Below, in pieces: positions 26,309 through 28,054 of a stretch of 64,000 nucleotides of DNA. This stretch comes from Rhodanobacter denitrificans (GTDB lineage Bacteria > Pseudomonadota > Gammaproteobacteria > Xanthomonadales > Rhodanobacteraceae): assembly GCF_000230695.2 (NCBI RefSeq), contig NC_020541.1:3720001-3784000 (forward strand). Reading direction: 5' to 3'. Both the position numbers and the translations under genes were made by a program. The first letter of the stretch is position 1; each line of letters starts with the position of its first letter. The notes beneath the pieces were generated by a model. It had not been told where the DNA came from. It worked only from the letters and a program-made list of their open reading frames with translations, and made no database searches.

Positions 26309-27175
<867 letters not shown>

Positions 27176-27204
27176 GGGTGGAACCTCCTGAACGACGTCA
27201 AAGT

Positions 27205-27231
27205 TTAGCACTCGGATGGTTTGAGTGCTAA
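27205..27231. promoter_or_regulatory. CIRCE operator (HrcA site) upstream of rpoH
   Basis: The 27-bp sequence is TTAGCACTC, nine bases, GAGTGCTAA, which is an exact match to the CIRCE consensus. It ends 30 bases upstream of the rpoH ATG. HrcA binds CIRCE and represses chaperone operons until GroEL is titrated by unfolded protein. The site overlaps the -10 region of a candidate sigma-E promoter. Confidence 0.93.
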
Positions 27232-27247
27232 AGCGCGAGTTGGTTCC
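27220..27247 (-). promoter_or_regulatory. candidate sigma-E promoter of rpoH
   Basis: On the minus strand GGAACCA (27247-27241), 15 bases, then CTCAAA (27225-27220) resembles the sigma-E pattern GGAACTT-N15-GTCAAA. The predicted start is near 27213, about 38 bases before the ATG. The -10 lies inside the CIRCE operator, so HrcA bound there would block it. Confidence 0.5.
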
Positions 27248-27331
27248 GCGCTTTTGTAAACTGAATGGTACAGATATTTGTCACCCTTGTCCAGCGCCCC
27301 ACCCCGCCGGCAAAGACTACCGACACGGCCT

Positions 27332-28054
27332 TCAAGCGGGCGTGAAACCGTCCCCCAGCGCGGCGCGAGGCGGCAGCGACCAGTCGATCGGCGCCTGGCC
27401 GTGCGCTTCCAGATAGCGGTTCGCCGCGGAAAAATGTCCGCAGCCGAGGAAGCCGCGGTGCGCCGACAGTGGCGAGGGGTGCACGCTCTTCAGCACACAG
27501 TGCTTGCGAGTGTCGATCAGTTGCCCCTTGCGCTGGGCGTAGCTGCCCCACAGCAGGAACACGAGGCCTTCGTGCTCGCGGCCCAGCGCGTCGATCGCCG
27601 CGTCGGTGAAGCCTTCCCAGCCCTTGCCCTGGTGCGAGCCGGCGCGGCCTTCCTCCACCGTCAGCACGCTGTTGAGCAAGAGCACGCCGCGGTCGGCCCA
27701 CGGCGTGAGGCAGCCGTGGTCGGGGCGCGCAATGTCGAGGTCGCGCTGGATTTCCTTGAAGATGTTTTCCAGCGACGGCGGCACCCGCACGCCGGGGCGC
27801 ACCGAGAAGCACAGGCCGTGCGCCTGGCCGGGGCCGTGGTACGGATCCTGGCCCAGGATCACCACCCGCACCGCGTCGAACGGGGTGTGCGCGAACGCGG
27901 CGAAGATCTCCGGACCGGGCGGATAGATCCGCTTGCCGGCCTGCTTCTCCGCGCGCAGGAACGCCGCCAGCGCCTGCATCTCCGGGCGCACGAGGTAGTC
28001 GCCGATGCGCGCCTTCCACGACGGTTCCAGCCGGATCTGCGCCGCGTCGCTCAT
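27332..28054 (-). CDS. ung: uracil-DNA glycosylase (family 1)
   Basis: A 240-residue enzyme that removes uracil from DNA for base excision repair. The water-activating motif [13 protein letters not shown] carries Asp70 and the catalytic loop [10 protein letters not shown] carries His192, both at positions typical of family 1. [12 protein letters not shown] provides the uracil-recognition asparagine. The ATG at 28054 overlaps the stop of the upstream response regulator (TCA at 28051-28053), so the two are translationally coupled. Nothing unusual is seen in the enzyme itself. Confidence 0.96.

Follow-up and report, generated by a model that had tools for sequence, protein, structure and literature searches.

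In a 64,000-nucleotide stretch of the Rhodanobacter denitrificans genome (hereafter the window; contig NC_020541.1, positions 3,720,001 to 3,784,000), the sigma-32 gene rpoH is preceded by a perfect CIRCE element (controlling inverted repeat of chaperone expression), the predicted operator of the repressor HrcA, and by a sigma-E-type promoter whose −10 site straddles the operator's edge. We read this as a fused promoter–operator, in which sigma-E would drive rpoH and HrcA, lying over the −10 and the start site, would repress it, giving a feedback that senses GroEL (probability roughly 0.8). Across the order Xanthomonadales the predicted overlap is an old arrangement, which comes and goes with hrcA in related bacteria.

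Operator and promoter before rpoH

The features of the locus, in window coordinates, are as follows:
26309–27175, minus strand: rpoH (sigma-32), ATG at 27175 and stop codon at 26309–26311; from the TIGR02392 (rpoH_proteo) equivalog and the list of open reading frames
27184–27189, minus strand: AGGAGG, putative Shine–Dalgarno sequence; read in the sequence
27205–27231, no strand assigned: predicted CIRCE operator for HrcA, perfect 9-9-9; from pattern match and conservation across the order
27220–27224, minus strand: sigma-E-type −10, TCAAA; from the TCNNA conserved at rpoH operators
27241–27247, minus strand: sigma-E-type −35, GGAACCA, 16 bases ahead of the −10; from the conserved GGAAC
27265–27293, minus strand: sigma-70-like TGGACA-N17-TACCAT, putative second promoter; promoter-like match
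27230–27253, minus strand: inverted repeat, or RNA hairpin, that encloses the −35 and adjoins CIRCE; present in part of the family

The minus-strand reading frame was identified as RpoH by the TIGR02392 equivalog, which it matched with 409.7 bits against a cut-off of 323.1. Reading along that strand towards rpoH, the order of elements is the sigma-70-like promoter, GGAACCA, 16 bases, TCAAA within CIRCE, AGGAGG and the ATG. The CIRCE pattern TTAGCACTC-N9-GAGTGCTAA is matched at 27205–27231 with no mismatches, as the original prediction held, but the distance to the rpoH ATG is 29 bases and not 30. With up to three mismatches allowed, this was the single match in the window, none appeared in 100 dinucleotide shuffles, and the complete genome, a single contig of 4,225,490 bases, gave two places, rpoH (no mismatches) and groES (one mismatch, at L002:1501–1527).

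The sigma-E-type promoter GGAACCA-N16-TCAAA (27247–27220, minus strand) is identical to the site first written as GGAACCA-N15-CTCAAA, and the overlap proposed for its −10 held up: bases 1–2 of TCAAA are the end of a CIRCE arm, the last three belong to the CIRCE spacer, and the overlap is conserved across the order. The site agrees with the sigma-E pattern of a GGAACTT-like −35, a spacer of 15–17 bases and a TCNNA-type −10. GGAAC-N18-TCNAA occurs once in the window against 0.07 expected, which taken alone is weak evidence because 7 of 100 shuffles also contain one. A chance match was nevertheless rejected, in part by the CIRCE shuffles (0 of 100) and mainly by the conservation of operator and promoter geometry described below.

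A search of the genome for hrcA and rpoE, suggested with the original prediction, recovered both. The hrcA product scored over the cut-off of PF01628 and reached 305 bits with the TIGR00331 equivalog (cut-off 197.2), and the gene sits in hrcA-grpE-dnaK-dnaJ (locus L233). The rpoE gene is of the RpoE/RseA type (TIGR02939 over cut-off; locus L143); the gene next after it is weakly RseA-like (45.3 bits, below the model's cut-off, which is 263), and rpoE is itself preceded by TGAACTC-N16-TCTGA (leading T read from the sequence), with a spacing identical to that of the sigma-E-type promoter of rpoH. The premise that HrcA normally controls groESL and dnaK does not suit this genome, where the whole-genome scan found no CIRCE with up to three mismatches at the hrcA-grpE-dnaK-dnaJ operon. 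A weak sigma-32-like stretch before hrcA, noticed by eye only, gave no match in a pattern search and is not claimed.

Conservation with hrcA across the order and beyond

The order was represented by 121 genomes, of which 116 gave an RpoH match, 59 an HrcA match and 58 both; the remaining HrcA match is in G033, where RpoH was not found. The region before rpoH was inspected over as much as 300 bases in the 116 genomes (less in G030 and G102 because of contig ends, with G012 placed separately) for the pattern TTAGCASTC-N8..10-GASTGCTAA at up to three mismatches, a spacer of 8 or 10 costing one. The S at one arm position and the spacer tolerance were chosen after variants had been seen; when each genome's region was shuffled 20 times, the best shuffle had 3 to 7 mismatches. 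The operator was present before rpoH in 57 of 58 genomes with hrcA and in 0 of 58 without it, one of the latter (G013) gaining an operator at four mismatches. A peculiarity of the R. denitrificans genome was rejected on this count and on that of the named loci below. The comparison of rpoH upstream regions advised at the outset thus bore out a conserved CIRCE, in fixed geometry and co-occurring with hrcA.

Four apparently independent losses of hrcA were found inside families that otherwise have it: G013 (f2), G011 with G021 (f12), G026 (f5) and G062 (f4), independence being judged by family labels without a tree and G062 being 87% complete. In all five genomes grpE was found with no HrcA in about 3.5 kb around it, and PF01628 was absent genome-wide; by gene content they are natural hrcA deletions. 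Their rpoH operators are gone or worn, with 4 mismatches in G013, 7 each in G011, G021 and G026, and 6 in G062. G013 has also lost the groES operator (8 mismatches). The promoter motif is retained in G013, as GGAACTT-N16-TCCAA, and in G011 and G021. Perfect operator arms occur at rpoH in R. denitrificans and the two sampled congeners (G105, G115). That CIRCE is an inherited relic, with rpoH in this species released from HrcA control, is most improbable when such arms are set against the missing or worn operators of the lineages without hrcA.

The promoter geometry is equally regular. GGAAC begins 14–17 nt upstream of the rpoH operator in 48 of 57 cases and NGAAC in 55 of 57, against a background of 13 in 3023 four-base windows further upstream. 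Of these 48 sites with GGAAC, 36 have TCNNA after 16 bases, 5 after 17 bases and 7 have none. TCNNA spans the inner edge of the operator at 42 of 48 rpoH operators (this 48 excludes the seven of f12 and two with 8-base spacers) compared with 1 of 48 groES operators, which come from largely overlapping genomes and serve as a comparison rather than a neutral background because they have their own preference (ACC). In f12 the −35 stands at 14 nt rather than 16 and the −10 reaches two bases further into the spacer, with the 16-base spacing held in 5 of 7 genomes; the predicted promoter there has moved by two bases as a whole. Of the 121 genomes, 119 gave an RpoE match, 118 of them over the curated cut-off; G019 and G052 gave none.

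The second putative promoter, TGGACA-N17-TACCAT, is the sole promoter-like match within 27100–27450 (0.1 expected), and a similar site lies upstream in 13 of 19 family genomes, suggesting tandem rpoH promoters. Because it lies upstream, CIRCE falls in its early transcribed region, and HrcA at CIRCE would affect this promoter too, acting by its position as a roadblock to transcription from 27293–27265. If rpoH were transcribed from the sigma-70-like site only, the sigma-E-like motif would be unused and HrcA would be a roadblock and nothing else. The recurrence of the upstream site in the family speaks for such an arrangement; however, it was not found in the other 6 of the 19 genomes, while the sigma-E-like −35 and −10 are conserved far past the family at fixed spacing, move as a unit in f12, and are kept in G013, G011 and G021 despite the lost or worn operator. 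We consider exclusive use of the sigma-70-like promoter unlikely.

In a wider sample, 78 named rpoH loci had enough upstream DNA (from the best 80 of at least 592), and 43 of these carried the operator, so that CIRCE at rpoH is widespread and not an isolated oddity. Of the 43, GGAAC stood at 13–18 nt in 20 and TCNNA was present in 27; among the same best-80 loci, those of Vibrio and the enterobacteria had no operator within four mismatches of the CIRCE consensus. A scan of 398 genomes across the phylum for the exact fusion, restricted to offset 16 and allowing up to two mismatches, gave matches in 42 genomes against 3 for a reversed control, many of the 42 being CIRCE with the mismatches falling in GGAAC. 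Zero-mismatch matches occurred in 8 of the 398, with 7 of these among the 10 genomes sampled from the order. CIRCE before rpoH thus extends well into the beta- and gamma-proteobacteria, and the sigma-E fusion less far.

Permina and Gelfand are said to have surveyed the beta, gamma and epsilon groups in 2003, and RegPrecise may already include rpoH among the targets of HrcA. CIRCE at rpoH itself was already known: in Geobacter sulfurreducens it lies upstream of rpoH, with the site at −51 (PMC545781), and the two cases are alike in operator consensus, target gene and closeness to the start codon. The fused geometry and an rpoH-only HrcA regulon were not met in the literature searched, mostly at the level of title listings, and a query joining HrcA, RpoE and the rpoH promoter returned no papers. 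What appears new is therefore the fused geometry together with the way it is coupled to hrcA, and the apparent rpoH-only regulon of f12.

Several observations weigh against a sigma-E promoter fused to an HrcA operator. The −35 in R. denitrificans is GGAACCA, short of the full GGAACTT. Exact GGAAC is missing at 9 of the 57 rpoH operators, and G022 and G054 do not have even NGAAC at the expected position. In G010 the operator has three mismatches, and one of that genome's own 20 shuffles matched at least as well. G052 (84% complete) has operator and −35 with no RpoE found, and G019 (f9) has hrcA and a groES CIRCE with neither an rpoH operator nor RpoE found. Two loss lineages, G026 and G062, gave no sigma-E-like motif by pattern. 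Among the named loci (best 80 of at least 592) GGAAC accompanies only 20 of 43 operators, so a CIRCE by no means always brings the fusion with it. Lastly, 53 of the 58 genomes without hrcA fall in four families, f7–f10, so the 57/58 versus 0/58 contrast is far from independent, and the losses inside otherwise hrcA-positive families are therefore the more independent evidence. The hrcA of G019 may differ in origin from that of other hrcA genes in the order. The RpoH of G019 is the most divergent (39%).

Targets of HrcA and the shared base

Of the 59 genomes with hrcA, 56 gave a groES match (G014, G033 and G055 did not), and 48 of the 56 had an operator before it at up to three mismatches, compared with the 57 of 58 for rpoH. 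Of the eight that lack one, seven are the hrcA-positive genomes of f12 and the eighth is G111 (four mismatches), so that the greater constancy of rpoH rests mainly on one family. With the same proviso, 7 of 8 misses in one family, rpoH is the more constant target here, in difference from G. sulfurreducens (PMC545781).

In the seven hrcA-positive genomes of f12, a whole-genome scan with a widened pattern found an operator with 0–1 mismatches only at rpoH; the remaining matches all had three mismatches and did not outnumber those of the reversed control. The HrcA proteins checked, from four f12 genomes, were full length, with 47–51% identity to the R. denitrificans protein over 346–351 residues. 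Some fragmentation affects the f12 genomes, whose completeness ranges from 77 to 100% and one of which has 7% contamination; their RpoH is 66–72% identical to the best named matches.

Most groES operators read TTGGCACTC or CTGGCACTC, followed by ACC or a close variant, and differ in this from the rpoH operators. As far as operator letters can tell, each HrcA target seems tuned to its own promoter.

At rpoH, the base before the TC of the −10 is shared by promoter and operator. A sigma-E-like motif precedes rpoH in 29 of the 58 genomes without hrcA by a looser pattern and in 27 by a stricter one; in 24 of the 29 this base is G, where CIRCE has C. The 48 nine-spaced operators outside f12 have, in left and right arm, C/C in 20, G/G in 12, C/G in 11 and other bases in 5, counts that include shared lineage. 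The G/G combination makes up 11 of the 17 in f2, where the CIRCE arm takes the G and the opposite arm the mirror change. The shared base could thus be pulled towards the promoter, with the opposite arm following. Counter to such a pull, 11 operators are altered solely in the arm distant from the promoter, and the G also stands in 8 of 45 groES operators, all in f2, that overlap no −10 of this kind. The groES cases would fit a drift in the specificity of HrcA itself, which explains the G equally well.

We hold at even odds a wider joint reading, by which HrcA in this order would be primarily an rpoH repressor, with groESL second; a chaperonin-sensing repressor would have been built into an envelope-stress −10; the f12 HrcA would have shed its other low-mismatch operators to serve rpoH alone; and the operator may yield to the promoter.

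Proposed control of rpoH

Under the fused promoter–operator, RpoE freed from its anti-sigma factor by envelope stress would transcribe rpoH from GGAACCA-N16-TCAAA. Judged by position, HrcA on CIRCE would cover both the −10 and the start site, and for that reason block the sigma-E-type promoter. The HrcA of other bacteria needs GroEL to remain active. When GroEL is filled by unfolded protein, HrcA would release groESL and rpoH and sigma-32 would rise; the sigma-32 regulon, including groESL and probably hrcA-grpE-dnaK-dnaJ, would then restore chaperones and repressor, sigma-32 closing a negative loop through hrcA. If this is true, full rpoH transcription requires both the loss of free GroEL and envelope stress, and a repressor thought to read free GroEL gates an envelope-reading promoter, so that 43 bases hold a gate with two inputs. 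Natural hrcA deletions in the order, together with a family whose HrcA apparently has a single target, make the role of HrcA at rpoH directly testable.

Each half of this arrangement has a known relative. The E. coli rpoH promoter P3 is sigma-E dependent, and the R. denitrificans site shares its −35 family and the 16-base spacer before rpoH; in contrast to R. denitrificans, E. coli gave no HrcA match in a profile search control. The enterobacterial named locus L038 has GGAACTT-N16-TCTGA before rpoH and no operator. In E. coli the rise in sigma-32 depends largely on translation and stability. HrcA and CIRCE control groESL in Bacillus, Agrobacterium and others, and R. denitrificans has the same repressor family and operator, with a CIRCE at its own groES. 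Whereas chaperones are controlled directly in those bacteria, here the operator also stands at the sigma factor gene above them and is absent from hrcA-dnaK.

CIRCE has also been described as a 5′ leader hairpin in Bacillus groE mRNA, and the sigma-E promoter could be real while CIRCE acts mainly in RNA, as such a hairpin. The rpoH leader does fold into two adjacent hairpins (z = −2.26). However, the start predicted from the −10 would exclude the CIRCE hairpin from the sigma-E transcript, and the presence of the operator follows hrcA; we give a mainly RNA-level role next to no weight.

An inverted repeat at 27230–27253 holds the sigma-E-type −35 in its loop, and its 3′ arm ends in the first CIRCE bases. 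A comparable stem was not evident in most other sequences folded. The repeat is also found in G105, G115, G080, G039, G046, G085, G060 and Dyella L003. By inspection, the genera differ in the letters of the stem but mostly keep its pairing, partly through G–U pairs, as for an RNA hairpin.
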